Below the pieces are notes generated by a model. The model ran no database searches. It saw only the letters and a program-made list of their open reading frames with translations, and was not told the origin of the DNA. Below, piece by piece: positions 2,547 through 53,856 of a stretch of DNA of 64,000 nucleotides. How positions within the stretch are numbered: the stretch's first letter is position 1; each line of letters starts with the position of its first letter. Source of the stretch: Labia minor. Its lineage: Eukaryota > Arthropoda > Insecta > Dermaptera > Spongiphoridae. A program made the position numbers and the translations under genes. Location of the stretch: the NCBI GenBank assembly GCA_963082975.1, contig OY720344.1, positions 33,038,033 through 33,102,032 on the forward strand, in the 5' to 3' direction.

Positions 2547-4724
2547 GTAAGTAAAAACACTAATCATATACAATATTCTATTAAAAAAAAAATTACACGA
2601 ATTTTTTCAAAATTATTTTAATTAACAAAAATGCATATATAGGAAATGTTGGTGAGTTATAGTTTAAATTAAATTAAGTGGGAAAATAAAAAATAAACGA
2701 ATTAAGAAAATAATTATAATCCAGAAAAAAGGATGTATTACATAACATGAAATTTCTTAGAACTGCACAGATACCTTTTATTTATGAATGTTTTTCAATG
2801 AAATCCATTAGCAACATTTTCTATTTTTAGTTAGTTTGTTAAATAGGCCTTGAACTGATTCTTCCTATATATAACAATAATATTTTTTTTCCAAATGCAA
2901 CAGTGTTCAAATTTCTTTCCTACCTTCATGTAAGCTCAAGGCCTTTTTTTCTGTTAGGAGTATTGTCAGACAAGAATCCGACAACGCCCTCCTTCAATTA
3001 GGTTTAATTAAAAAATTACTATATTTAGATATTATTTTAATTTATATTCTTAATTGAGCGCCTTTTTTTTATCTCATTTTTAAAAATTTATTATTATTTG
3101 CAATAGCTGATTAATAGTATATATTATAGTTATATTTTCTTATCTTTGTTCTACATTTATTTATTTCAATGTTATTTATTAGTGAATAGTAAAACAAAAA
3201 TATTAGTTAGTAGTTGTTATTTAAAAGAATATTAGATTAGTATACTAAAAATACAAAATAAATAAGTTAGGATTGAAGAGTGATATTTCCAATTCTATTT
3301 CTGACATTTGGAATGCCGTTAAGTTCGAGACACATTTTTAGCGTGGTTTTCACCCCTCGCATCTGTCTAGTCGACGCCCCTAAAAACCCACCCTCATCTC
3401 TACAACGGTCCAAATCACATTCAAAATCACATGGAGGTTATTTTATTTTTCTAAAATTTTTTTCAGACAATTCTGAATCCAATAAAAATACATCTGTTTT
3501 GTTTTATTTTTTATTTTGTTTTGTTTTTTTTTTAATTTCAATGCATTTCCTACCATCAATTCAAGATTCTTTTTAAACAAAAGATTTACTCGATTCAAAG
3601 CCGGGAGCGCTTCCCTGTCATGAGAGGAAATGTTTCAGAAATACAAACCACCTTCAAACAATTGAGACCACTCAGAAAGTTTCTCAATACACAATATATG
3701 TACATGTATTCTAAAATCTCATCAATTCTTTAATAAAACCTTAATATTGAATATTTAATTTTTTTTAATTTTCAATGAACATTACTGGTTTTAAATCCTC
3801 ATTTATTTATTTATTTTTGTTCGAGAAACTAAATTTTAGTCATTATTTTCGAATGAATGATTTCAAACTTTGTTTAGTATAATTTATTATCTATATAACT
3901 TAAACATACTAAAAATATTCAATATATACTTAAATAAAATTTAAAAAAAATGAAAAATATATAAGTTCATCCAAATTAGTAAACAATTCAAATAACAGTT
4001 TAAATTTGACTGATAATTTATCTTATTTACACATGTATATTAGTGCAATTATACTTTACTGTGAATTAAATACAAATATATTTTGTCATTTATTTAGTGA
4101 TGATGGTAACAAATTTCTTAAAAATAATTCTTTCTTTTTTTTTAATTCTTTTAACAATTTATTTAATTACCTAAATTTTCTTTCTTTCAATTTATTTTCA
4201 ATCACAAAATTAATCTATTTGATACTTTGTATTATATATCACATTATTTCATATATAATAAAGATAACTATTATTTAAATATGCATATATTTAATACTTA
4301 GACATTTTAAATTTTTTCTTATTTATATTAACCAATTGAAATAAATTAATTTTTTGAATGGTGAATTTCTATATTAATTCATTTTACATTTATCAATTCT
4401 TATTAAATTATACTTATTTCATGAATTCTTTATAAATTAAAAATAATAAATTTATAGTAGTTATTCAATGTTATTTTATAGAAATGAAATTATAAAAGGT
4501 TTACAAAAAAATTAAATTTAACAAAAATTAACGTTTCAAATTAGATTCTACCTAATTTTATTCTTGAATTTCAACTGAATAAGAATTTTAAGCTTAAAAT
4601 TATTTATTTCTCACCATAAAAACTTTATTATAAAGATGGTCCCCTACATAACTATATTTATTTTTAAATTATATAGTTTCTATATACCTAAATTTTTGAA
4701 GTTGCTGGATTTATTTTTAAGTTC

Positions 4725-5000
4725 CATTTGTCAGTTGTCCGTTACCTACGTCAATTTGTTTTCCCCTCTTTTTACCTGCCTCGCGCATTTCTTGAACCCA
4801 CCAACGCACTACACGTGGAGTCGTCTCCAGAAGACATTGACCCCAGTGAAGATCCCTTTTTCCTTTTTCAAAGCTTTACAACGGGTAGAGAGCCAACACG
4901 AAGGGTGATCGCGCCCTTCTCAGATGTTGCAGTTGGACTGAAATCCCAACCCTCGTTGCTGATTTCCTACCTAATGGCTCTTCTGACCTCAGCACGAAAG
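4725..5000. other. GC-richer island in intron, function unknown
   Basis: It is markedly richer in GC than its flanks and contains the E-box CACGTG near 4811. An ORF of about 140 codons crosses it on the + strand but resembles no family I know and does not continue as an exon. It could be an enhancer, an undetected exon or part of an unrecognised repeat. Confidence 0.3.
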
Positions 5001-6184
5001 GCCAACAGGCAAAAATATCACAATGCAATCCTCTTTTTAATACACGTACAATATAATTTCATTCAACATTTCCAATACAATAACCAACCTAGAAAAATAT
5101 CACCTTTCTTTTTGATATTAAATCACCTGGTTTTTTTTTTAAAGAGATAAACAACCTACATTATTCTCTTTTTTTAACTTTTTCAAATTTATCCTTTCAG
5201 TTTAATTCACACTCTCTAATCTTATCTTATATTGTATTCTTGTAACATTTTCGTTTCTTATATTAAAATAAATTTTAACGATATAAAAATTATATAATTT
5301 TTTATCACAAAAAAATTATTCTTTCAAATAAAAATAATAAGATTCATTTGAATATTAGGATAAGCATCTCCTTCACAGACATAAAGACATGAATATTACG
5401 TTTAAAACAAATCATGAATAAGAAATTCAATAAATAAACTCATTAACTAATTTTTTATTAATGAGTTAAATTATAATCAAGTGATAAGAAAATTGAAAAA
5501 ATGGAATGTAAAAATTTATAAAAATATTTTTATTTGAAACATGAATGAATGGATTATACTCATAACAAATTAAAAGAATATCTAAATATTCTTATTTAAA
5601 ATATACAAAATGTTTTTAATGATTATCTGAATAATTTAGAAACGCTTGAAATATATATTATTATTCGCGGGCGTGCATTTAGATATATATATATATATGT
5701 ATATTAATAAATTGCGCCATATTATATTCTATTCTATTTGTAATTGACCTGTCTGATATTACCCATTGGTGGGTTCAATGCTTTCACCATTTCAATTTCA
5801 TATTTAACATGTTCATTTCATATCGATTTGACAAAGGTGATTTTTAAGTGTTATACAATTTCTCACATAAATTAAATTCATGTTAAAGAATTTAATCAAC
5901 ATAAATGAATAAAATAAAATTCAATCCAATAAAAAATAAATATATATATTTATGGATTTTACTAATTTATATAAGAATTATGCTTCCTTCACCAATCTGC
6001 AAAAAATTATAATGTCGATTTAATTCTTTTATTAATGAAATCTATAAATATAGATTGGACATAGAAGAATCTTTTTATCACTTGTTGATCTCATCTATTC
6101 TTTTTGAACTAGTTTTATATAATACATTTAAATGTGAACTCCTCATTTCCAATCACACTTAAAAACTATAATAGATATGGCCTT

Positions 6185-6450
6185 GGCTTGCGTTTCAGTT
6201 AAAAGTTGCCCTACTATTTAATCCTTAGGCATTTTTGACCTGGAGAGACAAAGCTATGGCCCTCGTGAGAGGAAGTCCCGACCGTCTAGACGTCTCGCGC
6301 CCTTGCCGAGGCCTCTTACTTTCCGGATTTCTTGATTTCATCTAGACTGGCCCTGAACTCGAAATCTCCCCTAATACGATCATTCACATGCGCTTCAGTC
6401 CCAACTTTTTCTTTTTCGATAATCCTAAAATTGTATTTGGCCCCATTTTC
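6185..6450. other. GC-richer island in intron, function unknown
   Basis: CG-containing sequence (CTCGCGCCCTTGCCGAGG around 6293) interrupts the AT-rich intron. No long ORF or terminal repeats are seen. A regulatory element is possible. Confidence 0.3.
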
Positions 6451-7555: not shown

Positions 7556-7917
7556 AGATGTAGATGCAAATGACGTCTATCGCCGTCTTATATTGCATTT
7601 ATTATAAATTGATGTATATGAATCAAATATTAATTTTAATTAATTTTTTTTTAATATATCATATGTCATAGAATTACTGACAAAGTATTCAAAATAAAAG
7701 AATAATTAATTAATTTTATTTCAATAATTATAAAAGTAGATGTAGATGCAAATGACGTCTATCGCCGTCTTATATTACATTTATTATAAATTGATTTATA
7801 TGAATCAAATATTAATTTTAATTAATTTTTTTTTAATATATCATATGTCATAGAATTACTGACAAAGTATTCAAAATAAAAGAATAATTAATTAATTTTA
7901 TTTCAATAATTATAAAA
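7556..7917. repeat. 182-bp tandem duplication inside the piggyBac left end
   Basis: Two nearly identical units start at 7556 and 7738. Each begins AGATGTAGATGCAAATGACG and ends in an ATAATTATAAAA-type stretch. Few mismatches separate them (for example TTGCATTT against TTACATTT), so the duplication is young. It repeats one TGACGTCTATCGCCGTC subterminal motif. Confidence 0.9.
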
Positions 7918-8080
7918 TAAATGTTAGTAGAATATATAGTGAACATTTTAATAATTTTATTTCATTCTCTCTTCAAATGCGGTTTGAGGATTGATAATTA
8001 TTTTCCACAGGTTTGATTATAATAGCAACAAATTTAAAATTTACAGTTTTTTTTCTGTGCCTGTTATTTTTGTTGCCCTA

Positions 8081-9784
8081 ATGAGTCATCGCGTATGGAA
8101 AAATTTGAAGATGGAAGATTTAAATAAATCTAGTTATCAATTATCTTCTTCGGATAGTGAATCAACTGAAGAAAGTGATATTTTTGTTCGTGCTCGTCGA
8201 AAAGCGATTCCTTTAGTTTCAGATAGTGATTCCGAAAACATTTTACCACATACCACAAATAACGAAACTGAGTGGTTCAAAAATTCAGCCAAGATTAGAG
8301 AATTCCACTTTGATAAAAATGAATCCGGTGTAAAAATTGAAGTTGATATTAACTCAAAACCTCGGGATATATTCAACCAACTCTGGACCCAAAATGTTAT
8401 CCAGACAATTGTTAATGCATCAAATAATTATGGCAAAAATTTATATGAAGGTAGCCATATTGCAACTAGAAAATCATCTACATCTAGATTCAACGAAATT
8501 AACGAAGAAGAATTGATGAAGTTTTTGGGACTATGTTTGCTGCAAGCTCAAAATAGAGCACCGTCTATACGGCATTTATTTAGTAATGATGTATTATATT
8601 TCTCACCTATATTTCAACATACCATGACAGGGCGTCGTTTTCAACAATTGATACGTTGTATCAATGGACACTATGGAAACAATGAAGTTGATTATTCCGA
8701 AAAGTTACATAAAATACTACCTATTCTTAACCCGATACTATACAATTTCCAGAGAGCATTTTCACCTAAAAAAGAAATTTCTCTCGATGAATCTCTTTTA
8801 TTGTTCCGAGGTCGACTAAGCTTTCGACAATATATAAAAGGAAAGAAAGCAAAATATGGAATAAAATTTTATGAATTAACCAGTAGCGATGGTTATGTTT
8901 TAAATATTGAAATTTATCAAGGAAAAACTGGTCAGTCAGGGAAATTTTCAAAAATAAATGATCTTGTTTTAAGATTATTGAAGCCCTATTTAGATAAAGG
9001 ACATCATTTGTTTATGGATAATTTTTATAACAACATTGAATTGTCTAAGGAACTATTGAAACATAAAACTCACACTACAGGAATGCTTCGACCTAACAGA
9101 AAAGGTAATCCGATTGAAGTTACGGCAAAAAAACTAAGAAAAGGAGAACATATATGGCGTAGAAAAGGAGAGGTTTATATTTCTAAATGGCGAGATAACC
9201 GCGAAGTATTGTCTATAAGTACAAGTCACCACCCACAAATCATCGAAGTAACAAATAAACATGGACAATTGAAAATGAAGCCAAATGATATAGCTGATTA
9301 TAATCGATACATGTCAGGTATAGATAGAAGTGATCAAATGATTTCATATTATTCATCACCAAGAAAAACTATAAGATGGTATAAAAAAGTAATTTTCCAT
9401 ATTTTGGACCTATGTGTTTGGAATTCTTTTTACATATATCAACAATTTCATAAGAAAACAAAATTTCTACATTTCAGAGATTTGCTAATAAGATCTCTAA
9501 TTCAATTGCCTAATGATATTTCAACTGGTAAAAATTTAATGTTAGCAAAATCAATATGTGGTCGCCCAAAAACAATTGCAAGTGCTTCACCTTCGTTTGA
9601 TCGTATTCAACATTTTATAGAAAAAATCCCTAATCTAGAAAATTCAAAGCGCAAAAAAGTGTATCGCCGTTGTCGGAAATGTGCATCTAATAATATTCGA
9701 AAGGAAACTTGCTATAGATGCAAAACATGCCCGGAAAAACCACCCATTTGTCCAGAATGCTTTGAGTCTTTTCATACAAGTTAA
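8081..9784 (+). CDS. piggyBac-type DDD transposase
   Basis: This is a cut-and-paste transposase of the piggyBac family (DDE_Tnp_1_7), acting on the TTAA-flanked ends of its own element. I start it at ATG 8081, giving 567 aa; the frame is open upstream to a TTG at 7991, and a second ATG lies at 8111. The N-terminus is acidic and serine-rich (SSSDSEST). Catalytic aspartates are visible in the contexts LDES (about D236), FMDNFYN (D313) and SGIDRSDQ (D415/D418). The C-terminus is a cysteine-rich zinc-binding domain (CRKC, CYRCKTC, CPEC) typical of the family. Length fits known active members and no stop or frameshift is present. An acceptor-like TTTTCCACAG ends at 8010, so a 5'-UTR intron is possible. 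Confidence 0.93.
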   Translation: MSHRVWKNLKMEDLNKSSYQLSSSDSESTEESDIFVRARRKAIPLVSDSDSENILPHTTNNETEWFKNSAKIREFHFDKNESGVKIEVDINSKPRDIFNQLWTQNVIQTIVNASNNYGKNLYEGSHIATRKSSTSRFNEINEEELMKFLGLCLLQAQNRAPSIRHLFSNDVLYFSPIFQHTMTGRRFQQLIRCINGHYGNNEVDYSEKLHKILPILNPILYNFQRAFSPKKEISLDESLLLFRGRLSFRQYIKGKKAKYGIKFYELTSSDGYVLNIEIYQGKTGQSGKFSKINDLVLRLLKPYLDKGHHLFMDNFYNNIELSKELLKHKTHTTGMLRPNRKGNPIEVTAKKLRKGEHIWRRKGEVYISKWRDNREVLSISTSHHPQIIEVTNKHGQLKMKPNDIADYNRYMSGIDRSDQMISYYSSPRKTIRWYKKVIFHILDLCVWNSFYIYQQFHKKTKFLHFRDLLIRSLIQLPNDISTGKNLMLAKSICGRPKTIASASPSFDRIQHFIEKIPNLENSKRKKVYRRCRKCASNNIRKETCYRCKTCPEKPPICPECFESFHTS

Positions 9785-18331: not shown

Positions 18332-18649
18332 CACAAAACAAAATTGTTTAATTATTCCTCTTTCCCAGCCATAATTTACCTATTATGCTAAGTGGAAAAT
18401 TTTTCAATTAAATTATACAATATATGAAGCTTATTTATTTATTCATTCATTTTATTATTTCACATTAATTAAGAATGAAATGAAAACCCAAATTCAATAA
18501 TAAAAGTAGTATTTTCACAAAATGATTGACGTAGGCTTAATTAACATTTACTGTAAGCCGCTTCAATAACACGAAGAAAGTATAATGGACTAAATATTCC
18601 TCCGGTAAAAATATATTCAATTTCATTATTAGCGCTTTAATAAGTTGAC

Positions 18650-19277
18650 CTGTGGCCAGGTCCGAACCGACCGATGGTTTGAAGTAAATTAATTTCCAGC
18701 TACAGAAACAATTTCAAATAATTTTAATATATCTATTAATGTAATAAAAAACAGATATGGATACATAAATAATAAATATAAACATTTTTAATTTTATTTT
18801 ATTTATAATATATATGCAAGACCAGGCTGTGACGTCATGAATGGCTGGATGACGTCATATAATTTTAAATCAAGAAAAAAATAATAAATATGATTTTCCC
18901 GATGATAAAACCAATACAAAGTGCATGATTTGTGGTGATATATAAAAAAATCTCCTCACATGTGAAATTTGGTGTGAACATAACCCTTCCCTTCCTATCG
19001 TCGATCGCTAATACTACCACTTTCGGTTTCCGGATTTGCACCAAAAGTTGATCAATTCATCCCACTGATGCATTAAGTAAATATACCAAATTTCATCAAA
19101 ATCGGTTGAGCCGTTCAGGCTGTACACATCTATACGAACGGACGGACGGACAGACATCATGCTAAAAATACTTTTTTCTGTTAAGAAAATGCATGATTCG
19201 TGGAGATATGTAAAAATCTTCACATGTGAAATTTGGTGTGAAAACAATACCTCCCTTACTATCGTCGGTCGGTAAAA
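18650..19277 (+). repeat. Family B short element, well-preserved copy
   Basis: About 630 bp, starting CTGTGGCCAGGTCCGAACCG and ending TATCGTCGGTCGGTAAA. The two ends share an inverted ACCGACCGA core. It contains two TGACGTCA palindromes, a GGACGGACGGACAGAC run, and the ATTTGGTGTGAA and AAACCGATTTTG-type stretches common in arthropod non-autonomous elements. A near-identical inverted copy lies at 51182-51815. No transposase is encoded. The class is uncertain (Helitron-like or TIR). Confidence 0.85.
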
Positions 19278-23344: not shown

Positions 23345-23386
23345 TTATCTTAATTAATATTTTTTTCTTGTTTGTTTCAGGTAAGT
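23345..23386 (+). promoter_or_regulatory. Recursive splice site (ratchet point) RS1
   Basis: A branch-like TCTTAAT (about 23348), a pyrimidine tract from 23361 and TTTCAG (ending 23380) are followed directly by GTAAGT (23381-23386). This is the juxtaposed acceptor-donor (Y)nNCAG|GTAAGT of zero-length ratchet points described in Drosophila long introns. Splicing exon 1 here would rebuild GTG|GTAAGT for the next step. A second GTAAGT at 23418-23423 could define a transient 37-nt recursive exon (23381-23417). The motif is seen; its use is inferred. Confidence 0.72.
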
Positions 23387-23544
23387 TAAACGTATTTTTA
23401 ATGCATCGTTTTCATTCGTAAGTGTAAATCAAACTATATCGACTTAATATTTCCCTAGAAAATTATAAAAGTATTTATAATCGAAATTCGGTACAAATCA
23501 GCTTTTAGATATTTTTAGTTATTCAGACTGTTTAAAGTTTTCTC

Positions 23545-28819: not shown

Positions 28820-29264
28820 TCCTTTAGTTTATGGAAAAAAAAAAAATTTAAATGAAATGCATAATATTTTTTTTTTTATATATAATTATTAAACACAATG
28901 TTTTTCACTTAAGTATCTTGCACAAAAATTATTATTTAATATCACTGCACTGAACACAAACACTTAAATTTTCACATAACAATAACAGTAATTTATATAT
29001 TTTTTTTTTTTTTTTTATATTACATCAAATGGTTTAATTTTCTTATTTAATTTTTCGAAATTCTATTTCTTATAAATTCAAGCAAATTGTTTTTATTTTT
29101 ATTATTATTTTTTTTTTTATTAATTATCAAATCGAATTTATTTGGATTACCTTTGTGGTCGGTGGATATCGAAAAGGAATTTATAACAATTAATACAATT
29201 TTGCACTCTTTCTAACTATTAAGGTACCTCCTAAAACTAATAGAGAAGAAAAAAAAAAATAAAC

Positions 29265-30224
29265 TTATATTATAATATGCCGAAATAAAACAAATTTATA
29301 CAATTTAAATTTAAATTTTGTCCACGCCCGTCTTAAATGATATTTCCATTTCTTTGATATCTTTCTCCTTATCTTATTAATGTGTGGAGAAAGTGACGGG
29401 GCTATTTGCCATGATCTAATATAATTTACTAACACAATATGATATTTAATTTTGAATACCAATACGAATTGATTTATATAAAAAAATTTGGGAGGTTTGC
29501 ATTGCTTCGAACGCCTCGAACCGTGCGACGTCATGTTTCCATTATATATTTTTATTAAAAATTTCGTTGATTTTACGCCCGTGAATTTTTTAGAGGAGAT
29601 TCTTAAGGAATTATAGTTGTTATTTACCCTAATATAAATGGGCCTAAGGGGGGTGTGGGTTTTCACTTTATCAATTGCCTTATTTGCACTTTTTATTTTT
29701 AGTTTCTTTTGTATTTCTTTGCTGGACACTACTCCTACAATAACAATAGGCATATCCTTCCAATGGCTTACCTGTGCTGGCTCAATGGAAATTATCTTTA
29801 ATGGGTCAACTTGCATCTTTTTCTTTGTCATTTCTTTATTGTTATTCCTATTTGGACTTTTTGCAATTTGAATATTGTTAATAGACATTGCCTCCGGGGC
29901 CTGGTCAATGCTTTCTTTTAAATTCAATATTCCTGGTACCTGCACTATTATTTCACTTTCTCTATTTTCCAATTCATTATTTATTTCTTTAATTTTGTCT
30001 GACTTGGGTATATTGGATATTAACGATACATTTACATTTTGACCCTCTATTTTTTCGATTTGATGATGGTTATTTTCTTTTAAATTTTGCCTATTTGTGC
30101 TTGCCTCCCCCGTTCTGTTTAAATTAGTATACATTAGGTCCAGAATTTGTTGGAGCATTTCCTTTACACTAGGTTCCTTAGCCGTTTGCATTTTATTATT
30201 ATTATTATTATTACTTTTATTCAT
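29265..30224 (-). CDS. ORF of LTR element A, gag-like by position
   Basis: A 319-aa ORF fills the internal region of element A. It opens with an asparagine run (SNNNNNNK), then a glutamate/asparagine-rich part, and ends in a very basic tail (KIRRKISKKWKYHLRR and on). No zinc knuckle, protease or polymerase motif is visible. By position it may be a degenerate gag, but no family is recognised. The first 190 residues look like real coding sequence; the AT-driven C-terminal part may be read-through after a frameshift. Confidence 0.45.
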   Translation of the reverse strand: MNKSNNNNNNKMQTAKEPSVKEMLQQILDLMYTNLNRTGEASTNRQNLKENNHHQIEKIEGQNVNVSLISNIPKSDKIKEINNELENRESEIIVQVPGILNLKESIDQAPEAMSINNIQIAKSPNRNNNKEMTKKKMQVDPLKIISIEPAQVSHWKDMPIVIVGVVSSKEIQKKLKIKSANKAIDKVKTHTPLRPIYIRVNNNYNSLRISSKKFTGVKSTKFLIKIYNGNMTSHGSRRSKQCKPPKFFYINQFVLVFKIKYHIVLVNYIRSWQIAPSLSPHINKIRRKISKKWKYHLRRAWTKFKFKLYKFVLFRHIII

Positions 30225-30570
30225 TAATAATCAGAAAGGCATGAAAAACTATATCAATTTTTTACCGCGACAAAAATTGAATATTATAAACAATAGGCAA
30301 TTTGCTTTTAATTTTCCAGAAATAGAATCCCGCAAAATCAACTAATATAAGAAGTCAAAATCAAATAAATCCGACAAAAATTCAATAAAACAGAAAAAAA
30401 AAAATTTTTTTTTTTTTTTTTAAATAAAAAAAAATTAAATTGAATTTTTCACAAAAAGAAAAAAAATATTTCAAACTATTAATATTAATATATAAACTGA
30501 ACGTATCCAATTTCACTTTGCCAAATCAACCATTTCCAGTTTTAATTCAATTCGAGGTGGAAGACCTCCA

Positions 30571-30836
30571 TGTCGTATATAAAATATAAAGTGGGTGAGG
30601 TATTTTATAAGAAATAATGTGTTAAAAAAAATTAGTTTAATTAATAAGTAGCACTCTGGATTGAATTTAGAATAATTAAAAAGGGTTATTGAATCCGCGT
30701 AGGTTGATATGGGAAATAATAAGATTGAATAGGTTCAATTTGAAATGCTTATATAAAATTATAACAAATTATTTATTTAATAAAACTAGGAGACTTAAAT
30801 TTACAAAATAGATAATAATGAAATTAATATAAAATA
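30571..30836 (-). repeat. Left part of the interrupted LTR of element A
   Basis: It matches 28082-28347 and stops exactly at the element B insertion point. It resumes at 35707. The intact copy shows that AAATA at the junction was the target. Confidence 0.85.
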
Positions 30837-31656
30837 TGTCAAAGCATATATCGTGACAATTCCAGTCCTAACCTCGATTGATTAAAATCAGATCTTATTA
30901 GTCCTGTCCTTGGCACAGCAATTACCTCTTCGATAAAAGCTGAAATAATCAGGGGCCGTTAACTTCCGATGAGGGTGCAATTCAAGATATCAATGAATAA
31001 AGAAACTTAGACTTCTCCTTAACAATATTTTAATAAATGAATATCGACAAAATAATAGATATTATGAAATAATACAAGTGAAATGTTTAGATGTAAAAAT
31101 AAATATAAATATAAAGAATGAATAGTGTAACCAAATCCTGGGTATTGTAGAAATGGCATCCAATGATACTTAAGCGAAGCAGATGACTCCAAGCCAGTGA
31201 AATTCTCTCCCATATGGTGTGACTCGTGGATGTGGGTCGCCTTGGTTTGTAGTTTGGTAGTGGATGGCGTCTTCCCAATCCGTTTGTATTGTGGATGTGT
31301 TTCTTGTTGAGTTTAATAGAATAAAGGAGAACTAGATTCACTGGAAATGGGTTCTGCTACTGGAATAAGATTTGGATCTACTGGATAAATTGATAGATGG
31401 AAGGACTTGGTTACTTATATTAGGTTATGAGAGGTTGAACATGTTTGAGCCTAGCTGTGGTTGGAGTATAATGGAAGAAGTAGGCTGTTGGATGGTTGTG
31501 GCTAGACTGGCGATATGTGAAATGTGAGGGAAGTGGGAAGATCTCAGAGGTGTTAATTAAGATCACAAACTCCTTTGAGCTACCGGTCTCCCTCTAGAGT
31601 CAGAGAAGGGAAGTAATATTTAAAGCAATCATTTATTCCAATCATTGGCCTAAACA
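30837..31656 (-). repeat. 3' LTR of element B
   Basis: An 820-bp copy with TG...CA ends, matching 34882-35701 at a constant offset of 4045 without any difference I could spot. Two short minus-strand frames inside are not considered genes. Confidence 0.9.
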
Positions 31657-31671
31657 CACTCCCCCCCAAAA
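31657..31671 (-). other. Polypurine tract of element B
   Basis: On the minus strand TTTTTGGGGGGGAGTG directly precedes the 3' LTR, the expected place for the plus-strand DNA primer of an LTR element. Confidence 0.75.
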
Positions 31672-31817
31672 ATTCCCTAAAGCGGAATTTTTCAAATGAG
31701 ATTAACTAAATGTGAACCAATGGTTGTTACCGAATTTAACAATTAACTAATGTACCATTTAGAAATATATATTATATGTCTGAGGTTTCTCTTTGATCAA
31801 TTTGAAAAGAGTAGTTG

Positions 31818-33929
31818 CTAAGGAGGATATTTGGTATAAGCAGGATAAATTAATAACTTCTTGTCTTGTAGGAAGATTCTTATCCTTCTTTTGTACATCA
31901 AATATCCACCTAGGAGTTTTAAAATTGGATTATTGTGTGAAAGCTCAAGAGTGGATGTTCCTAAATGCCTTAGAATAAAATGGTCTTGATTTTTTACATA
32001 TAATAATTTTAGATCTTTCGAATATGTAAATACTGGGGTTGAGGTCAGACTATGAGTCGAAATTTTATATATGTGAGTTGTTCGTGAGAGTTTGTTGATA
32101 TAGATGAACTTAGGCCGTGTGTATGATGATAACAAAATAATTCTAAAATTGGGATATGGTAAACCTAAAGGTATAGATGAATAGGATTTTTCGTGAGCTG
32201 TTAGGGTATTTTGAGTGCCGTATGATAAAATTGATATTGTTGGTTGTAGATTGACTCCAAAATTCCTAAACTTATTTGCAACCTCATTGTACCAATGCCT
32301 ATTCAAATGCAATACTTGGTTCAATCTGAATGTGAATGGAATATGATGCTTTATTGTTTCTGTCAAATATTGATTAGTTCGATTAGCAAAAAGAAGTGGA
32401 GTTGTGATTTTAGAGAAGAGTTGATAAAAGGTATATACGTTGATGGGGGGTATTGGAGTATCGCAGAATAACATTTTTAAATATGCCCTTTTGGTAGGTG
32501 CATATGCGATTGGGAGAAACATTTTCTTGATGTCTGCTGTGACTGTAGAACAATGCATTTGATATCTCATTGAGTTTAATTTGTTTAAAATGTTATTTTG
32601 CAAAATATCTCCAGTTTTGTGAGAACTGTTTATAGAAAAATGGGATGTCAATTTAGTTGTATGATTTACAACCCTTTGAACATGACTTAAACACCTTTTA
32701 TAACTTTCTCGAAGATGTGTGTTAGATTCGCTAATCGAACTTGATTGCCTATTTTGAATTGGATTTGAATGTTCACTAAATTTAAAATCTACTAATTGTC
32801 TAAAAGAAAATGAATATAAATTTTTTGTAAATGATGTTCTAATTAAATCTATAATATGTTTTCTAAATAATATAAGGAATTTTGATTCATGTTGAAGTGC
32901 GATGTCGTGGTATTCGAAATTTTGGAAATAATTGAATTGAATATTGCATAATTTTGATGGTTTCCTAATGAAAGATAAATTATGTTGAAAGTGCCCTGAT
33001 TTAATAATTTTGATCGATGGTTTTAATTCTCGCTCTTTTGGGAGAGGAGGTTTGTGTCGCATGCAATGTGAAAGAGGACATTCGCTTATCTTAGGTGCCT
33101 CCTTACACTTGGGACAGGATATTTGAGGAGTATGAGTTAAGGAGATTCTGAAATTAGTTACAGGTCTGGGGGTCCGGTTGAAGACACCAGAACGTGGAAG
33201 TCGTGTTGTCTGGAGGGTGGAGATTCGGGAATCGGTCCCATGTCTTGGGATTCGGTTGGATACCTCGCGATTCCTTATAGGCATCTCCGAACGTCCAGTA
33301 TATGGTTTTGTTATAGATGATTTATTCAACTGGATGAATGAAAGGACCGATTGATATTCGGGAATAATGTCTTCATTCCCGATGGAGAGAATCCACTTTT
33401 CTTTGAGCTCCGGAGTCATTTTCTGCATGATGATCCGAACTAGAATTGGATTCCATTCCTTTACATTACATTCCAGGATTATTAGTTGCTCAATTATCTC
33501 CTTAAACACAGAATAAAAATAATTAGAGTCTGATATATTGTGCTTTTGTATGGCCTTACATTCTAATAATTTATTTAGCAAGGGAATAATTGTTCTTTTC
33601 CCTTTTACAAAATTATCTTTTAATATGGGAAATGTTGAATTATAATCTTTTGGGCTCAATGAAACAATCAAATCATCAACTACATCAATATATGTGGAGG
33701 CTGATTGCATTAAAATTTTGAAATTGGGATGGTCTTGTAAATGATTTAAAAATATTTCTGCTCGAAATATAAAAGAATCTTTTATTAATTTATTGGCCAT
33801 CTTAATAAACCGTGGTAAATGGATCGAATAAATAGAATTTTTTGTTTTACTGACCATTCCGGTAAAATCATTTTGAGCTGCCTCGAGAACATACCATTGA
33901 TTAGTTAACGATTCTATTGATGGAGCCAT
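31818..33929 (-). CDS. BEL/Pao-like gag plus truncated reverse transcriptase
   Basis: The 703-aa ORF begins at ATG 33927-33929. Residues about 1-205 resemble the DUF1759 gag-like region of BEL/Pao polyproteins. A proline/arginine linker is followed by a cysteine-rich CPKCKEAPKISECPLSHC segment (272-289). Residues about 435-520 resemble the BEL/Pao reverse transcriptase start, with TADIKKMF (464-471) matching its motif A. The catalytic YxDD box, RNase H and integrase are missing, and the tail after about 550 matches nothing I recognise. It is best read as a gag-bearing, pol-deleted protein. A complete BEL polyprotein is several times longer in its pol part. Family assignment is from motif memory, not a search. 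Confidence 0.7.
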   Translation of the reverse strand: MAPSIESLTNQWYVLEAAQNDFTGMVSKTKNSIYSIHLPRFIKMANKLIKDSFIFRAEIFLNHLQDHPNFKILMQSASTYIDVVDDLIVSLSPKDYNSTFPILKDNFVKGKRTIIPLLNKLLECKAIQKHNISDSNYFYSVFKEIIEQLIILECNVKEWNPILVRIIMQKMTPELKEKWILSIGNEDIIPEYQSVLSFIQLNKSSITKPYTGRSEMPIRNREVSNRIPRHGTDSRISTLQTTRLPRSGVFNRTPRPVTNFRISLTHTPQISCPKCKEAPKISECPLSHCMRHKPPLPKERELKPSIKIIKSGHFQHNLSFIRKPSKLCNIQFNYFQNFEYHDIALQHESKFLILFRKHIIDLIRTSFTKNLYSFSFRQLVDFKFSEHSNPIQNRQSSSISESNTHLRESYKRCLSHVQRVVNHTTKLTSHFSINSSHKTGDILQNNILNKLNSMRYQMHCSTVTADIKKMFLPIAYAPTKRAYLKMLFCDTPIPPINVYTFYQLFSKITTPLLFANRTNQYLTETIKHHIPFTFRLNQVLHLNRHWYNEVANKFRNFGVNLQPTISILSYGTQNTLTAHEKSYSSIPLGLPYPNFRIILLSSYTRPKFIYINKLSRTTHIYKISTHSLTSTPVFTYSKDLKLLYVKNQDHFILRHLGTSTLELSHNNPILKLLGGYLMYKRRIRIFLQDKKLLIYPAYTKYPP

Positions 33930-34449
33930 TTTAGATTTTAAATTTTAAATTAACAAAATATAAACAATAATATGAAAAGTGAGATGTATAAATAAATGAA
34001 ATTGGATTGGAAATAGATGGCGTTGATTTAGCTTCCAAATTTTAAATATTCAAACATAAATTTGTGAAATTAAATAAGAATTAACCAAAAACAAATGTTT
34101 AAAATAATTCAATAACAAACTATTTAGTTAATTCAACCATAAAATATTTTGTAATACAAATTTAAAACAATTGAAAACAATATTTTGTATTTATGTAGAA
34201 GATGTGGATTTTTCTATTTTATTTCAAAATATTCAAAAGTTAACTAAACAATTAAATGTGCACGAGAATTAATTTCAAACAGAAATGTATAGACCAAAAA
34301 TATTTTAAAATATAGCTTAATTAATTTTAAATTCACAAACAAATTGAAATTAATTAAGTAGATGAAATAATAAAATGAAGTTAATTTAAAAACTAGTTGA
34401 AACAATTTAATATAATTTAAATTAGATGATATTTTAATCTTAATGGAAA

Positions 34450-34792
34450 CAATATGGCGGAGACCACGTGCTATGCAATTTTTCGAAAGCCAAAATAGTA
34501 TTTAGACTGCACGTGTTTAAAATAAACTTAAACTAATACAGCAAAATGAATTTTAAATTCACAAACAAAATTGAAATTGATTAATTATATGAAATAATAA
34601 AAATAGACTTAATTTTAAAAAATTTGAAACAATTTAATAGTTGAAATTAGATGATAATTTAATTTTAATTTTAATGAAAATTGTATTTTGTCTAAACCAA
34701 TATGGCGGAGACCACGTGATATGCAATCTTTCGAGAACCAAGATGGCGGACACCACGTGACATGCAGGTGTTGAAATGATGCTACCACGTGG
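34450..34792 (-). repeat. ATGGCGGA..CCACGTG repeats in the leader of element B
   Basis: The untranslated leader carries three versions of ATGGCGGAGACCACGTG (about 34454, 34702, 34743). CACGTG palindromes sit at 34465, 34510, 34713, 34754 and 34786. Repeated E-box-like sites here may act in transcription or RNA packaging. Confidence 0.6.
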
Positions 34793-34860
34793 AGGATTAA
34801 CGAAAATCTTATCCTCTCTAATCAAAATAAATCAAACCACACCACAAATCGAACCAAACC

Positions 34861-34878
34861 GTCCCTGTTCGGGCGCCA
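34861..34878 (-). other. tRNA-Lys primer-binding site of element B
   Basis: The + strand reads GTCCCTGTTCGGGCGCCA, the 3' end of a tRNA-Lys including CCA. Three bases separate it from the LTR at 34882. It fixes the element orientation as minus. Confidence 0.88.
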
Positions 34879-34881
34879 TTA

Positions 34882-35701
34882 TGTCAAAGCATATATCGTG
34901 ACAATTCCAGTCCTAACCTCGATTGATTAAAATCAGATCTTATTAGTCCTGTCCTTGGCACAGCAATTACCTCTTCGATAAAAGCTGAAATAATCAGGGG
35001 CCGTTAACTTCCGATGAGGGTGCAATTCAAGATATCAATGAATAAAGAAACTTAGACTTCTCCTTAACAATATTTTAATAAATGAATATCGACAAAATAA
35101 TAGATATTATGAAATAATACAAGTGAAATGTTTAGATGTAAAAATAAATATAAATATAAAGAATGAATAGTGTAACCAAATCCTGGGTATTGTAGAAATG
35201 GCATCCAATGATACTTAAGCGAAGCAGATGACTCCAAGCCAGTGAAATTCTCTCCCATATGGTGTGACTCGTGGATGTGGGTCGCCTTGGTTTGTAGTTT
35301 GGTAGTGGATGGCGTCTTCCCAATCCGTTTGTATTGTGGATGTGTTTCTTGTTGAGTTTAATAGAATAAAGGAGAACTAGATTCACTGGAAATGGGTTCT
35401 GCTACTGGAATAAGATTTGGATCTACTGGATAAATTGATAGATGGAAGGACTTGGTTACTTATATTAGGTTATGAGAGGTTGAACATGTTTGAGCCTAGC
35501 TGTGGTTGGAGTATAATGGAAGAAGTAGGCTGTTGGATGGTTGTGGCTAGACTGGCGATATGTGAAATGTGAGGGAAGTGGGAAGATCTCAGAGGTGTTA
35601 ATTAAGATCACAAACTCCTTTGAGCTACCGGTCTCCCTCTAGAGTCAGAGAAGGGAAGTAATATTTAAAGCAATCATTTATTCCAATCATTGGCCTAAAC
35701 A
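34882..35701 (-). repeat. 5' LTR of element B
   Basis: Twin of 30837-31656; it lies next to the primer-binding site and would hold the promoter. No TATA box is obvious. Confidence 0.9.
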
Positions 35702-35706
35702 AAATA

Positions 35707-36182
35707 GAACATATTGAAAGGTACCGTAAAATAGAAATATAAATTAAAAGAAATTTAATTTATATTTTAGCAATTGCAATTATAATTAATTATTAATTAT
35801 GAAAGTGTTATCACTTAGCATGAAAGAAAGGAATGGAGAGTTCATTGGAGACTTGAGTCCTAATTGTCTTCCTGCGGATTTAACTGGAACATCTATTGTG
35901 CAGCAACATTTCTCAAAAAGGGGTTGTGTATGATGTCCTTCCTGCAGGGATATGTATGTCTCCCTCCAATGCCTGATCAAGACTAACTCAAATATCATTT
36001 TCACCAATAATGAAACCTTTCCCCCACTTTGAACACATGGATGGGTCCCTGTACATGTGCAGACAACATGTCCCATGACCAATCGTCTTTTTCTTAAATT
36101 TAGCACGTGTTCAAAAATGAAAGTTCTAGCTTTCTCACCCTTATATACATAAAAACTGTATTTTTTAGGATTATATATTACA
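35707..36182 (-). repeat. Right part of the interrupted LTR of element A
   Basis: Continues the LTR cut at 30836 and matches the corresponding end of the intact copy to 28819, including the open 106-codon frame (35786-36106). Confidence 0.85.
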
Positions 36183-40568: not shown

Positions 40569-40602
40569 CTAATTGATTTTTTTCTTTTTTTTACAGGTAA
40601 GT
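40569..40602 (+). promoter_or_regulatory. Recursive splice site (ratchet point) RS2
   Basis: The branch-point-like CTAAT (40569-40573), a pyrimidine tract (TTTTTTTCTTTTTTTT) and TTACAG (ending 40596) are followed directly by GTAAGT (40597-40602). The layout matches RS1 and the (Y)nNCAG|GTAAGT ratchet consensus. Nearby downstream donors are weak (GTATAA 40653, GTAAAA 40660). Use in splicing is inferred. Confidence 0.75.
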
Positions 40603-41214
40603 TGGATTTATTGGAAATTCCTCTTCAAATTAATTTCAAGTCATCATGGTCTGTATAATGTAAAAATCACTTTAGGTGATCCTTAATAAAACATGCAGAT
40701 GTTTTCTTTGATTAATTTTATTTGTTATAATTCTTAAATTTAAATTAAATTCAATGACATGTGTATGTGGTATGTGTATAAAATTAAAATTTGTTTACAC
40801 CATGAAATAATTACATATTCTAAATGTTAATCAAATTGGATTGGTATATTAAGAAAATGGAATTCCACTCAAATCAAATGAGCTAAATGATCCACCCAAG
40901 CCAGAGAAAAGCTTTCGACTAAATGGGACAGATGGAAGGGCCAACACCCTTTATTCAGAATCTAAATTTCTGTTGTTATGGGGATGCAAGTCAAATAATT
41001 CCCTTCATTTTTCTCTTGCTAAGGATCACATTCAAATTAAAAACAAAAGAAAAATATCACTGACTATATTTTATTTTCAAGTTTATGGAATATAAATTAT
41101 TTAAATACTTGCTCACTTAATACTATATTAAAATTCTATTATCCATGTAACAAACTTGTATTGTCATTAATAGGATGCTTTTATGGTAGATAAATCACGA
41201 CTCCCCCGCTTTTA

Positions 41215-41480
41215 AATGTTATATTTTAGTAGTTAAAGGGGCCTGTACCGCCTGTTGGATTGGGGGTTTGTGGGCCCACGCGTTTTCAGTCGGCGGGGCT
41301 GAGTTTCGAACCGTTGGCGTGCGCAAGTACAGATGACGTCATACCCATCTAGTTTGGCATCGATTTGCCTTGCCATTTTCCAATTGTATCTCTTCCCACA
41401 TGGAGCCGCCTACTTAGCCCTTCTATTGATGACGCATAGCCGTGAGCGTGACGTCACACAATTGATGACGTCTTGAAACA
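41215..41480. promoter_or_regulatory. CRE-rich intronic island, possible enhancer or promoter
   Basis: This CG-rich island has TGACGTCA at 41334-41341 and 41449-41456, TGACGTC at 41466-41472 and a TGACGCA variant at 41430-41436. A TCAGT initiator-like site is at 41286-41290. The same CRE palindrome sits in the exon-1 promoter, which may mean shared CREB/ATF control. No clear donor follows, so an enhancer is as likely as an alternative promoter. Confidence 0.45.
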
Positions 41481-43675
41481 AGTTTTCAACTCTTTCATTG
41501 AATTAGTTTATACTATAAATTATGTTGTACGTAGCGTAAAAATTACAAGCGTAAATGTAAAATTTGAGATAAACAATTTATTAATTAAATTTTATTGGAG
41601 ATAAATGGGTCTTTGATTTTTATTGAGAATTCTAGATAATTTATTCGTTTGCTTTGGGAGTTTATACAAAAACCAACTCTTAAAAAGAATTTAAACTACT
41701 TTAATGATATCTATAAAACATACACTAGTAGTTTCACTGAATTAAATATTTATTCCTGAAATTCTGAATTCTAATAAAACAGAAAACAAGAAAAACTTAA
41801 AATACAAGAATAAATATTTCCGGGAAGTTTCAGATTAGGAATTAGAAAGGGTAATGCATTTTCGAAGAAAAGGAGAATGTTGTTAAATCAACCCACGATT
41901 TTCGATTCCATTTAAATATCGACTTTTAACTGAAATTCCCACGCAAATGTCTCTCCATCTCCCCGACATTTAAAATTCATTCATTCATTTTCATAAATGA
42001 ATGATTATTTTCTCCATTTTTATCAAATTTTTTCATTTGTAAATAAATTTCATTGTTTTGTAAACACTTTCAAGGTGGGAGTTTATTTTCAGCGCCAAAG
42101 GCACCCTCATATTGCAATGTCATTGCTTATATTTAAGGGAGCAAATATTTTTGTCCGGGACCATGTGATGTGAAAGCTCTGATATTATTTTTAAACTTAG
42201 CTTTTATTCAGGAGAAGTCTTCATTACGTAAAAATATCCTGCTGATAATGTCACTTCATGATGAAAGATGCTTTAGGTTTGTTATTTTTTTAGATTTCTA
42301 ATAATAAATTCATAGAAATCAACAGCAGATATCATACATAAAAATATTTACATATATAAATATATTATTAAAAAAAAGATTTAATTTTGACTTTTATTTC
42401 TTAAAAACAAATTCGGGATTGTAATAAATAAATTAAAAATTACCAAAAAAATAATTAATCTAATTTCTCATTAAATTATTTTAGTATATTGTTCTAAATT
42501 TTTTAAAAGATTATATTATTTTGTAATCATCTTATACCTATATTATTTTTTGTTTTTGTTTTTTGTTAATAGATAACATACGCATTTACTTATTATTTAT
42601 GTAAATTTTGTTGAAAACAAAATTAAGCAATCATCTTCGTAGTATTTGTTTCACAAGTGATTATAGAAATAGAATAATAATTATAATTGAATCAAAGATA
42701 ATATACTTATTAATTATTTAAGCAAAAAATTAATTAATTTAGATTGTCTATTTCATATAATTTGATCAATTAAAAAGCAAAGGCAAGGTGAAAAATAATT
42801 CTCTCCAATTTTTAGCCTAAAAACAAATAAAAAAGTTAATTTGAAGACAAAGTTTACTCCATGGTTAGAAAAATTAAAAAAGAAATGATAGTTTTGACCC
42901 TCTACCTTTGTTATTAAATAAACCTAAACGTTCCTTCATCTTGCTGATATAATAAAAGCCAAATGAGTCATAGATACGAATCTGAAACTTTTAATGGTGT
43001 AGATTCATTTGGACTGGTAGTAAATATGCTAAGCTTGGTTTTTTTTCAATGTCTCATCTTTTATAAATTCGTTATCAATTTGGATTAGGAATGAACAACG
43101 AGAAAAGAATAACTATAACTTATTTCGAAACTTGATCTAATATATAAAATATATCTCTCTTCTTATCGGAAGTTATACGTTTCAATTTTGGTTTCAGGAA
43201 AAATTAATTATAATAATAAGAAACAGTAATATCTTGATTGTTTGTTTTTCGTGAAAATTCATTCATTAATCGTTCCATCAATTTAAAGTATTTATATTTA
43301 GTGAGGAATCTTATAAAAGTACTTTCACTTACTATAAATGCCTATACATTTAGGTAAGGGAAAGTACCTACATAAAACCAGGTAATGATTTAAAAAGGAA
43401 AAATATTCTATTAACTGAATATCTTGTTTAAAAACGAAGATGACCTCAATAGCTTTAATTGAAAAAGTAGATTGATTTCACCTTCTGGGGAAATTAAACA
43501 TAACTTAGCATGAGGAATTAGAAATATAAAAAGAATGTATGAATATAAGTATATTTTTCATGTAACACTGCTTTAAATTCCCAACTTAATTTTTTGAAAT
43601 AGTTTAATATTAGTAATTTTAATTTATAAATGTAAAAAGGTGAAATTTTTAAACTTTCTATTGATATATATTCAA

Positions 43676-49934: not shown

Positions 49935-49935
<1 letters not shown>

Positions 49936-49975
<40 letters not shown>
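49936..49975. repeat. Uninterrupted run of 40 T
   Basis: A homopolymer of 40 T follows unique, GC-richer sequence. It may be the reverse complement of a retroposon poly(A) tail, or partly a sequencing artefact. Confidence 0.7.
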
Positions 49976-49979
<4 letters not shown>

Positions 49980-50990: not shown

Positions 50991-51181
50991 ATATACAGAA
51001 GTGAAATGTTTATTTAATAATTGGAATACAAAATTAATTAATTAATATTAAAACCTAATAATTATTTCAAAATATATATTTATCTCATTATCTTATTTTA
51101 TTTATTAATAAAATTTAAATTATTTTTATCTTTATTACAAGAATTTTCAACATAGAAAATGAGCCCCATTAGGTTACCTCT

Positions 51182-51815
51182 TTACCGACCGACGATAGTA
51201 AGGGAGGTATTGTTTTCACACCAAATTTCACATGTGGAGATTTTTACATATCTCCACGAATCATGCATTTTCTAAACAGAAAAAAGTATTTTTAGCATGA
51301 TGTCTGTCCGTCCGTCTGTCCGTCTGTCCGTCCGTATAGATGTGTACAGCCTGAACGGCTCAACCGATTTTGATGAAATTTGGTATATTTACTTAATGCA
51401 TCAGTGGGATGAATTGATCAACTTTTGGTGCAAATCCGTGAACCGGAAGTGGTAGTATTAGCGATCGACGATAGGAAGGGAAGGGTTATTTTCACACCAA
51501 ATTTCACATGAGGAGATTTTTTTATATATCACCACGAATCATGCACTTTGTATTGGTTTTATCCTCGGGAAAATCATATTTATTAGTTTTTTCTTGATTT
51601 AAAATTATATGACGTCATCCAGCCATTCATGACGTCACAGCCTGGTCTTACATATATATTATAAATAAAATAAAATTAAAAATATTTATGTTATATGCCT
51701 ATATGTTTTTTATTACATTAATAGATATATTAAAATTATTTGAAATTGTTTCTGTAACTGGAAATTAATTTACTTCAAACCGTCGGTCGGTTCGGAACTG
51801 GCCACAGGTCAACTT
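51182..51815 (-). repeat. Family B short element, inverted copy
   Basis: Near-identical inverted copy of 18650-19277, starting TTACCGACCGACGATAGTAA and ending CTGGCCACAGGTCAACTT. It contains a longer GTCCGTCTGTCC microsatellite and both TGACGTCA palindromes. Confidence 0.88.
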
Positions 51816-52479
51816 ATTTTATTTTGATTTCATGTTGAATGGATAGAGAATGAATGATATCCGTTTGCTGGGTGAAAGTGGGTGTAGTTTAATAAGAATA
51901 TGAGGATGGTCTGGGACGGTAAATGGGAACAGACTGTCTCGGTTTGCTAATTACTTATTCATCGTTCCATTCACAATTCAGAATTATGTTTATTAATTAA
52001 AAATAATTATAATGATATTGATAGAAAGGATTATAAATAAAAATCATTTCTCTTTTGTCAATTTTTTTTTATTGATAAATGATCGTAAGGCCCTTCAAAT
52101 CATAAAAAAGTTTCCAAACAAATTCACTTGTCAAAACATTCTTATCCATCTAGAATCCAAGTATATTTTCTCGATTCGTGAATAATAATTGAATTCCTTT
52201 TTTTTTGGTTAATGAACTTTGGCTATAAGGAAAATTGCTTAAGAAAATATATTCCCTCTCTTTCTCTCACTCTCTCGCTCTCTTCCTTCAGTCTAGTCTT
52301 ATGTTATTCTTTTGTTGTTTTAAAACATGAAAGAATTATACCTTTCTTATTATATTTATTTAAATAGAATTATTACTTTTTTCTCTGTCCCCTTAAAAGT
52401 AGAATATTTATAACATTCTAATTAAGAATAAATAAATAATTTTTTTGTTATATTATACGGGGAATTTTCCGTCTCTTAA

Positions 52480-52930
52480 ATGAAGTGGCAACAATGTTCA
52501 GCAGGCAACGATCAGCTGACTCCTGTTGAAATTTGAACCAGCTGAGTCTGAGTCCTTTAGTTTTTGTTTGGCATCCATTAATAGCAGACTACCTTGTGAT
52601 TTGAAAAGAAAATGGAAAAAAGTGAATTTCGTGTGCTCATTAAGCATTATTTTTTGAGGAAAAAAACATTAAAACCGAGTTTTTGAGCCGTTTGGTGAAA
52701 CGTGGATCCACCACAAGACCACAACACACCAGAGACCAAACAGCAGTCATAACAGTGGGTTTTTCGGGGTGAATCGCCACCAAAGACATATTTTATTTTT
52801 TGAAAGAGATAAAACAAAATTTGGAGAAAAGTTGTACGAAGTGTATAGAGCTAAACGGAGACTATATTGAAAAATAATTTTTTATCTAAATACCCGTATT
52901 TCATTCAAAAAGTCACGGATTTATTGACCT
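52480..52930 (+). pseudogene. mariner element relic
   Basis: ATG 52612 opens MEKSEFRVLIKHYFLRKKT, the N-terminus of a mariner-type transposase, then stops appear within 25 codons. A C-terminal-like stretch about 52800-52870 ends VYRAKRRLY and a stop. Most of the catalytic region is deleted. Confidence 0.65.
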
Positions 52931-53856
52931 GCCCTCGTTTTTCTTGAATTTAAAAAAAAAAAATTATATCCAATAATATCTTATAATTAATTGTATTTTT
53001 ATTTATCATTTAAAATTATAATTCATTTCACATTCGATTAATTCAATATAACATTTAACGGATATAAAAATTTTATTGAATTAAAATATTATCAAATTGT
53101 ATTAAACATCTTGTTATTGAATATTTCAATTTAAAAAAGTATAAATGTTTGAAAATCTCAATTAGAATTTACATCAACTATTCAGTTAATATTATACACA
53201 TGTTAAATAATTAAAAACAACCCAATCATGGGTTTCACTTATCACCTCACAATGAGTATATTTCTTTAAAAAAATTTTTTCTTTAAATTATAAATATATT
53301 CTTGAGGGGATAACTTTTAAAGATATTTAATTTTATTACAGGAATTAATATGAAATAAAAATTATTAATATTTCTATTTATTAAACTGTGATTAATTTTT
53401 CTTATACATTTGTAAATTAAATATTTTGTCTAAATTCAAACTAAAGAATGATTTAGGATGCGAATATTAACACCTAAGCCACTATGATTAATTTTTAAAT
53501 ATATTTAATAATAAATTGCACTGATCGATAGTTTATAGTTTATTTATATATTATTATAATGATATTTAATTTTCAAATAAAAAAAAAATTTATGAATGAA
53601 AAATATAATTTTTATTTTTAACTTTAATAGTTGATAAAATATTATTTTTTTCTCTAAAGATAAAATTAAATAGGGACAAATCTATTGTTTGTTTGTTTTT
53701 TCGGAATTTTTTTTTTTAAATACAAATTGTCATTAATGTATTATTTATATAATATTAGGTGAATATTTATTTATTAAAAAATAATTAGTATTTACTTTAA
53801 GATATTGTATTCCATTTTTCTTTCTTACAAATTTTTTCTTTTCTTTGTTTTTCTAG

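Follow-up and report, generated by a model that had tools for sequence, protein, structure and literature searches.

A predicted case of recursive splicing in a probable 51.3-kb PRL-1 intron of Labia minor

Zero-nucleotide ratchet points within introns were reportedly described in Drosophila by Hatton (1998), Burnette (2005), and Duff (2015). Recursive splicing has been shown experimentally in flies and mammals, according to passages of PMC8605326. In fly, mosquito, bee, beetle, and sea urchin, introns above 50 kb show an enrichment of RP sites on their sense strand, according to parts of PMC2773006. Genome-wide, the same parts give 0.48–1.03 RP sites per 100 kb in mosquito, bee, beetle, and sea urchin, and 2.2 in fly. 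For insects other than flies, these motif counts are the evidence of recursive splicing that we found in the literature. Sections of PMC6110457 describe a high-confidence recursive site in 63% of fly introns above 40 kb, with first introns enriched; fly segments have a mean length of 9.1 kb and are typically 9–15 kb, and in two-site introns the first site lies ~33% of the way in. Recursive splicing of PRL-1 was not found in the literature that we searched.

We analyzed a 64-kb stretch of DNA (the window) from Labia minor, an insect with AT-rich DNA. The interval 2547–53856 is, very probably, the first intron of PRL-1, lying in the 5'UTR and removed by zero-nucleotide recursive splicing at two sites (Table 1). 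At the level of sequence, this reading is supported by a pair of zero-length ratchet-type sites that lie on the correct strand of a long interval, with a promoter-like exon before it and what appears to be a 5'UTR exon of PRL-1 after it. Like the Drosophila ratchet points, these sites have the form (Y)n-NCAG/GTAAGT, would rebuild the donor, and are on the sense strand of a long and probably first intron: it would span 51.3 kb and be the first if exon 1 is PRL-1's. Unlike them, they are in another insect order and are predicted from sequence; the segments (20.8, 17.2, and 13.3 kb) also differ from the fly lengths, and the first site lies 41% of the way into the intron. The motif and the sense-strand excess are shared with the computed RP sites of mosquito, bee, beetle, and sea urchin, as far as those parts of PMC2773006 describe them, but those counts are genome-wide, whereas ours are from one gene, with 2 sites in 51.3 kb.

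Table 1. Features of the PRL-1 locus, by position in the window. A slash marks a splice cut.
Feature	Position	Strand	Details
Palindrome TGACGTCA, presumably CRE-like	2373..2380	+	within CpG-rich promoter-like block 2251-2576
Putative first exon (5'UTR)	2417..2546	+	start placed at C of TCAGT (2416-2420), whose A is 2418
Exon 1 5' splice site	2547..2552	+	gtg/GTAAGT (gaagtg before the cut after 2546)
Ratchet point 1 (predicted)	23359..23386	+	atttttttcttgtttgtttcag/GTAAGT, cut after 23380
Candidate cryptic RS-exon, ratchet point 1	23381..23417	+	37 nt; weaker donor ttc/GTAAGT; weak basis
Ratchet point 2 (predicted)	40575..40602	+	gatttttttcttttttttacag/GTAAGT, cut after 40596
Candidate cryptic RS-exon, ratchet point 2	40597..40769	+	173 nt; weaker donor gtg/GTATGT; weak basis
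Final 3' splice site	53835..53856	+	tttcttttctttgtttttctag; tttctag/TCACTA; score 9.7
PRL-1 exon 2	53857..54622	+	5'UTR 53857-54493, first coding part 54494-54622
Upstream ORF	53884..53934	+	MEFRLDSAEYCQAQHK-stop; starts 27 nt behind the 53856 acceptor
PRL-1 coding exon 3 (exon 1 counted as non-coding)	60319..60450	+	
PRL-1 coding exon 4	61944..62110	+	contains HCVSGLGR (C-x5-R)
PRL-1 last coding exon	63315..63426	+	terminates CCVQ-stop

Downstream of the interval is a complete and intact PRL-1 coding region of 179 amino acids. The translation contains HCVSGLGR and has CCVQ at its C terminus, which we take to be the C-x5-R active site and the CaaX motif of a PRL / PTP4A phosphatase. The best relative with a solved structure is named PRL-1 phosphatase (E = 1.8e-66). 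The protein is 86% identical to its termite counterpart, versus 73% for Daphnia, 72% for Artemia, and 71% for Darwinula and Armadillidium. In a tree it is placed beside cockroach and termite, with no fork that holds it reaching the program's star. A first-pass annotation of this DNA had taken it for that of a crustacean, which these comparisons do not bear out; they favor an insect close to cockroaches and termites.

The same annotation had noted exactly two sites in the interval where an acceptor runs straight into a donor, and this proved correct to the nucleotide. At 23380 (tttcag/GTAAGT) and at 40596 (ttacag/GTAAGT), a strong polypyrimidine-CAG 3' splice site directly adjoins GTAAGT, which is the (Y)nNCAG/GTAAGT juxtaposition of a zero-nucleotide ratchet point. 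In the whole window, AGGTAAGT occurs twice on the + strand (the strand of PRL-1) and 0 times on the − strand, and YAGGTRAGT gives the same counts. Branch-like motifs lie upstream of both sites: TTAAT at 24 and 28 nt before ratchet point 1, and CTAAT at 25 nt and TTGAT at 21 nt before ratchet point 2. On paper, joining exon 1 to either site regenerates gtg/GTAAGT. Neither site falls inside any repeat of at least 60 bp within the window, so we ruled out that they are parts of such repeats.

We scored splice sites with approximate matrices. Among the 1,993 GT dinucleotides of the interval, the donors of the two ratchet points rank first and second, and the donor of exon 1, whose reported position was also exact, ranks third. 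The acceptors at 23380 and 40596 rank fourth and first of 1,935 AG with the +1 base scored, and eighth and seventh of 1,933 if just the intron side is considered.

The spacing of the sites had also been described as even. The segment sizes stand, but the evenness is marginal (P = 0.05 for two random points), and segment 2 contains a retroelement flanked by direct repeats that are 99–100% identical. We therefore rejected even spacing as a strong argument. We compared 18 open + strand frames of the interval to Pfam, including all 9 of at least 90 amino acids and some of the shorter ones. Only a piggyBac transposase had a convincing domain; the next-best matches (E = 0.0076 at 3277–3573 and 0.079 at 30067–30342) fell under the curated cut-offs of their families. 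With no other convincing frame among the 18, we rejected the idea that exon 1 truly belongs with a nested + strand coding gene. The highest-scoring match to the transposase is 61% identical, and none of the best 120 of 287 matches is near-identical. Searches for Rfam families (at the gathering score) and for tRNAs gave 0 matches.

Promoter-like sequence and splice signals lead us to assign exon 1 to PRL-1, provisionally. The promoter-like block (2251–2576) has a GC content of up to 0.53 and a CpG observed/expected ratio of up to 1.79, the top value among the 24 GC-rich blocks listed. TCAGT, where we placed the start of the exon, is presumably an arthropod initiator-like motif. (A scan of 2300–2560 for bacterial-type promoters and terminators gave 0 matches, which is uninformative for an animal promoter.) At the other end of the interval, the first-pass annotation had seen no convincing partner for the exon 1 donor before 53856. 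This was too strong, because the 53856 acceptor ranks just 29th of 1,935 and the interval holds 15 acceptor-donor pairs of fair strength, 20–400 nt apart, in sense orientation (and 16 in antisense orientation). The 70 nt that precede 53856 contain no YTRAY branch-like motif, and neither does the sequence before the PRL-1 acceptor at 60318. The 5'UTR part of exon 2 contains 2 ATG, versus ~9.3 expected, and 0.25% of 2,000 simulations were as low. With its inner donors (54035 and 54388), exon 2 has space for another UTR intron.

The main promoter of PRL-1 might instead be near 53.8 kb, with exon 1 starting a minor or separate non-coding transcript that the ratchet points serve. The exon 2 block is also GC-rich, with CpG observed/expected up to 1.09, and 28 intervening acceptors outscore 53856. 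On the other hand, a T-rich acceptor lies right at the start of this block, its position is matched in an ORF from another organism (P0121, discussed below), and the frames that we scanned offer the transposase as the sole convincing alternative product. We consider this arrangement unlikely. Independently of the strength of 53856, the upstream ORF shared with P0121 supports it as the acceptor and would anchor exon 2.

Another possibility is that each of the two sites marks the 5' end of an RS-exon that the mRNA sometimes retains, as happens in fly Ubx, so that the sites would serve both as ratchets and as alternative UTR exons. Downstream donors are present at both sites: 37 and 182 nt from site 1, and 52, 79, and 173 nt from site 2. 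Yet donors of this type lie near 10–35% of random points, depending on the cut-off and the distance: 10.4% have a donor as good as that of site 1 within 20–60 nt, and 12.9% have a donor of at least 7.5 within 20–200 nt. Also, the ratchet donor (14.4) beats the downstream donors (4.3–8.6) at both sites, and in flies a ratchet donor that is stronger than the downstream donor favors skipping of the RS-exon, as passages of PMC8605326 state. Retention seems improbable to us.

It is extremely unlikely that the two sites are chance matches or pseudo-sites of a T-rich intron: polypyrimidine tracts are common in such sequence, the matrices are approximate, the threshold was post hoc, and single sites of up to 21.0 arose among 60 simulated introns, but 2 sites were found where an intron would be expected to have 0.002 that reach the observed score, with 0 on the antisense strand. 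Both sites score 21.7, and the next best of the 110 AG/GT in the interval scores 12.05; on the antisense strand, the best of 115 scores 15.6. We simulated 60 introns at each of three Markov orders (1, 3, and 5); none had a site that equaled the score of the lower observed site, and the best single sites were close to it (19.4, 21.0, and 20.8, respectively). With the cut-off placed post hoc, at the observed value, 52 Mb of order-3 sequence contained 2 sites of at least 21.6, which corresponds to the 0.002 per 51.3 kb and to a Poisson probability of ~2e-6 for two or more. The expectation for AGGTAAGT by itself is 0.26 to 0.62 occurrences per intron, depending on the Markov order.

If the intron is removed recursively, we infer that it is removed stepwise, from 5' to 3'. 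Once RNA polymerase II has passed 23380, exon 1 would be spliced to the acceptor there, which would immediately rebuild the donor gtg/GTAAGT. This donor would be spliced to 40596, where the donor would be rebuilt again, and the second rebuilt donor would be spliced to 53856, so that the mRNA would keep no intron sequence.

A magnesium-sensitive uORF of vertebrate PRL-1/2 was reportedly described by Hardy (2019). Like that one, the uORF in exon 2 encodes a short peptide and precedes the coding region of a PRL gene, in its 5'UTR; the two are compared by description rather than by peptide, and the magnesium response is a feature of the vertebrate one (parts of PMC11855589 and PMC7530721). All 16 residues of the uORF, and its stop, are identical in P0121, a 31-amino-acid ORF that is the single relative found (phmmer E = 0.3). 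The preceding 15 residues of P0121 are unlike those before the uORF here, so in this one relative the peptide is kept while the flank has diverged. The upstream residues of P0121 resemble a translated acceptor, and the uORF is at the same distance of 9 codons from the likely acceptor. The exact back-translation of the uORF gave 0 matches in viral contigs, the peptide was not found as text in the literature searched, and the main text of PMC2276209, on conserved uORFs of Diptera, does not contain "PRL", "CG4993", or "phosphatase".

If 2546 joins 53857, the uORF extends in frame into exon 1 (MCMAEV/SLNKRLRYH-). A transcript that is halted at ratchet point 1, or that keeps its RS-exon, would read MCMAEVVS-stop. 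Recursive splicing might conceivably be coupled to the shared uORF, with start codons of exon 1 in frame into MEFRLDSAEYCQAQHK across the final junction, but this is a long shot. If it were true, the choice of ratchet point could switch the access of ribosomes to the conserved peptide and so tune the translation of PRL-1, perhaps in response to magnesium.

Recursive splicing itself is already known. Our observations strongly suggest a new case, in the PRL-1 intron of an insect outside the flies, and a clean two-site intron of this kind would be a precise test of the age of recursive splicing. The uORF suggests that the control of PRL genes by short upstream peptides may extend to insects.

Inspection of the sequence confirmed the exact positions of all four splice sites in the first-pass annotation, as well as its claim that the interval holds just two zero-length acceptor-donor sites. 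A scan of the complete 64-kb window located AGGTAAGT at just two positions, 23380 and 40596, both on the forward strand; the reverse strand has none. At both of these putative ratchet points, the junction is preceded by a T-rich tract and then NCAG, and branch-like YTRAY motifs lie 21–28 nt upstream; no YTRAY motif was found in the 70 nt before the final acceptor at 53856. In the proposed mechanism, exon 1 would be spliced to 23380, which would rebuild the donor gtg/GTAAGT; the rebuilt donor would be spliced to 40596, restoring gtg/GTAAGT once more; and the donor at 40596 would be spliced to 53856. In flies, recursive segments are described as being removed mostly in 5′ to 3′ order (PMC6110457).

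All of our site scores rest on approximate splice matrices. The two ratchet sites score 21.7 each, while the third-best AG/GT of the interval scores 12.05 (n = 110) and the best antisense site scores 15.6 (n = 115). Along with the exon-1 donor, they are the top three donors among the 1993 GTs of the interval. None of the simulated introns (three sets of 60, of Markov order 1, 3, and 5) had a site that reached the lower ratchet site's score; the best sites scored 19.4, 21.0, and 20.8, respectively. With a cut-off taken from the observed data, on which these probabilities depend, we found two sites of at least 21.6 in 52 Mb of order-3 sequence (0.002 per intron), or P ~ 2e-6 for two sites; we also estimated the chance of two or more of the eight strongest acceptors adjoining GTAAGT by accident, at P = 2.7e-7. 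Without the pyrimidine tract, the expected number of AGGTAAGT per intron is 0.48 at order 1, 0.27 at order 3 (0.26 in a larger order-3 run), and 0.62 at order 5. Only the zero-length juxtaposition stands out, because ordinary acceptor-donor pairs are about equally frequent on both strands (15 sense, 16 antisense; neither enriched), and the best antisense pair (23.8) outscores the best sense pair (22.2).

Fly ratchet points reportedly act via a cryptic exon, and the ratchet donor is stronger than the donor downstream of that exon (PMC8605326). Our two sites also have candidate weaker downstream donors (37 and 182 nt past the first; 52, 79, and 173 nt past the second), but compared with random points, their frequency is within the chance level. 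More broadly, PMC6110457 describes high-confidence recursive sites in 63% of fly introns above 40 kb, with first introns enriched, and PMC2773006 describes sense-strand enrichment of ratchet-point sites within introns above 50 kb in fly, mosquito, bee, beetle, and sea urchin.

The segments are 20.8, 17.2, and 13.3 kb, as annotated, but their evenness is marginal (P = 0.05). Segment 1 contains a piggyBac frame. Segment 2 contains a DUF1759 frame, which we take to be linked to retroelements, and, between 28340 and 36182, direct repeats of 99.4% and 100% identity. Insertions therefore account in part for the spacing seen today. A 182-bp tandem duplication precedes the piggyBac frame. The retroelement remains span 28082–36182 on the reverse strand, with direct repeats (95–100% identical) in irregular order; the sequence suggests nested or partly deleted copies.

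At the 5′ end, block 2251–2576 ranks first in CpG o/e (1.79) among the 24 GC-rich blocks in the window and contains TCAGT at 2416–2420. According to a 2026 preprint, CG-rich sequence surrounds the 5′ splice site of recursive first introns in human cells (PMC13105047), and exon 1 is similarly CG-rich near its 5′ splice site. A second good donor (ttg/GTGAGT at 2651, 105 nt past the exon-1 donor) may serve as an alternative 5′ splice site. With 2546 spliced to 53857, the ATGs of exon 1 would be in frame with the shared upstream ORF (uORF) peptide discussed below. Among 18 open forward-strand frames between exon 1 and PRL-1 that were scanned against Pfam, including all nine of at least 90 amino acids, only the piggyBac transposase had a convincing domain. 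We infer that exon 1 belongs to PRL-1.

The window contains eight TGACGTCA palindromes (0.32 expected): four in two copies of one repeat (18639–19276 and 51181–51818), one in the promoter-like block (at 2373), and two in a GC-rich island 0.7–0.9 kb 3′ of the second ratchet point. This island is possibly an enhancer or alternative promoter.

Features of the window
Feature	Position	Strand	Remarks
piggyBac transposase frame	7556–9784	+	stop-free, 598 aa; segment 1; 61% identical to one from Anthophora retusa
DUF1759-domain frame	31821–33944	-	retroelement remains; Pfam scan; segment 2
GC-rich island (intronic)	41126–41501		GC up to 0.54, CpG o/e up to 1.21
TGACGTCA palindromes	2373, 13103, 18830, 18850, 41334, 41449, 51610, 51630		
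uORF	53884–53934	+	16 codons, MEFRLDSAEYCQAQHK-stop; first ATG of the 637-nt leader
Fair donors in 5′ UTR exon	54035, 54388	+	weak acceptors 54458, 54492
PRL-1 coding piece	54494–54622	+	GT-AG borders
PRL-1 coding piece	60319–60450	+	GT-AG borders
PRL-1 coding piece	61944–62110	+	GT-AG borders
PRL-1 coding piece	63315–63426	+	GT-AG borders

The final acceptor scores 9.7 (rank 29 of 1935), and the remaining PRL-1 acceptors score 12.7, 3.0, and 8.2. The 637 nt 5′ of the start codon contain two ATGs versus ~9.3 expected (0.25% of 2000 simulations were as low), while the neighboring stretches have 10 versus 8.7 (upstream) and 11 versus 9.1 (downstream). This depletion convincingly resembles a real 5′ UTR. 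The fair donors within this exon allow a possible extra UTR intron.

The last 16 residues and stop of a 31-aa ORF, P0121, are identical to the uORF; its first half (MFLYFQLEIPSVETL) differs from the window. P0121 was the sole candidate. In a search of 5.8 billion sequences it reached an E-value of only 0.3, so the argument relies on the match being exact and co-terminal. FLYFQ of P0121 reads like a translated pyrimidine tract plus CAG, nine codons 5′ of the ATG; the acceptor TAG in the window is likewise nine codons 5′ of the uORF's ATG. This match to one protein supports exon 2 and its border at 53856. This insect uORF may correspond to the PRL uORF of vertebrates, which is described as magnesium-sensitive (PMC11855589) and serves as a positive control in PMC7530721.

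The joined coding pieces encode a 179-aa PRL-1 with HCVSGLGR and a C-terminal CCVQ. Among the 120 listed of 1618 proteins found, the closest is from a termite (86% identity), versus 73% for Daphnia and 72% for Artemia. In a tree of 31 sequences (30 named proteins chosen from those 120), it joins cockroach and termite (support 86/81), nested with cricket and phasmids (94/82), with both supports narrowly below the tree program's star; six crustacean proteins are placed elsewhere. The crustacean origin proposed in the first-pass annotation is thus not supported, and given these identities and the tree, the gene most likely comes from a polyneopteran insect.

Our literature search, which covered neither supplementary tables nor most subscription papers, found no recursive splicing of PRL-1; the fly gene may nevertheless appear somewhere in a published list of recursive introns. 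For recursive splicing with crustacean, cockroach, or Tribolium, only PMC2773006 was on topic, judging the others by title or the opening of the abstract. Zero-nucleotide recursive splicing of PRL-1 is a well-supported prediction for a new gene and a new insect lineage, and the shared uORF is the more unexpected neighbor of this predicted recursive intron.
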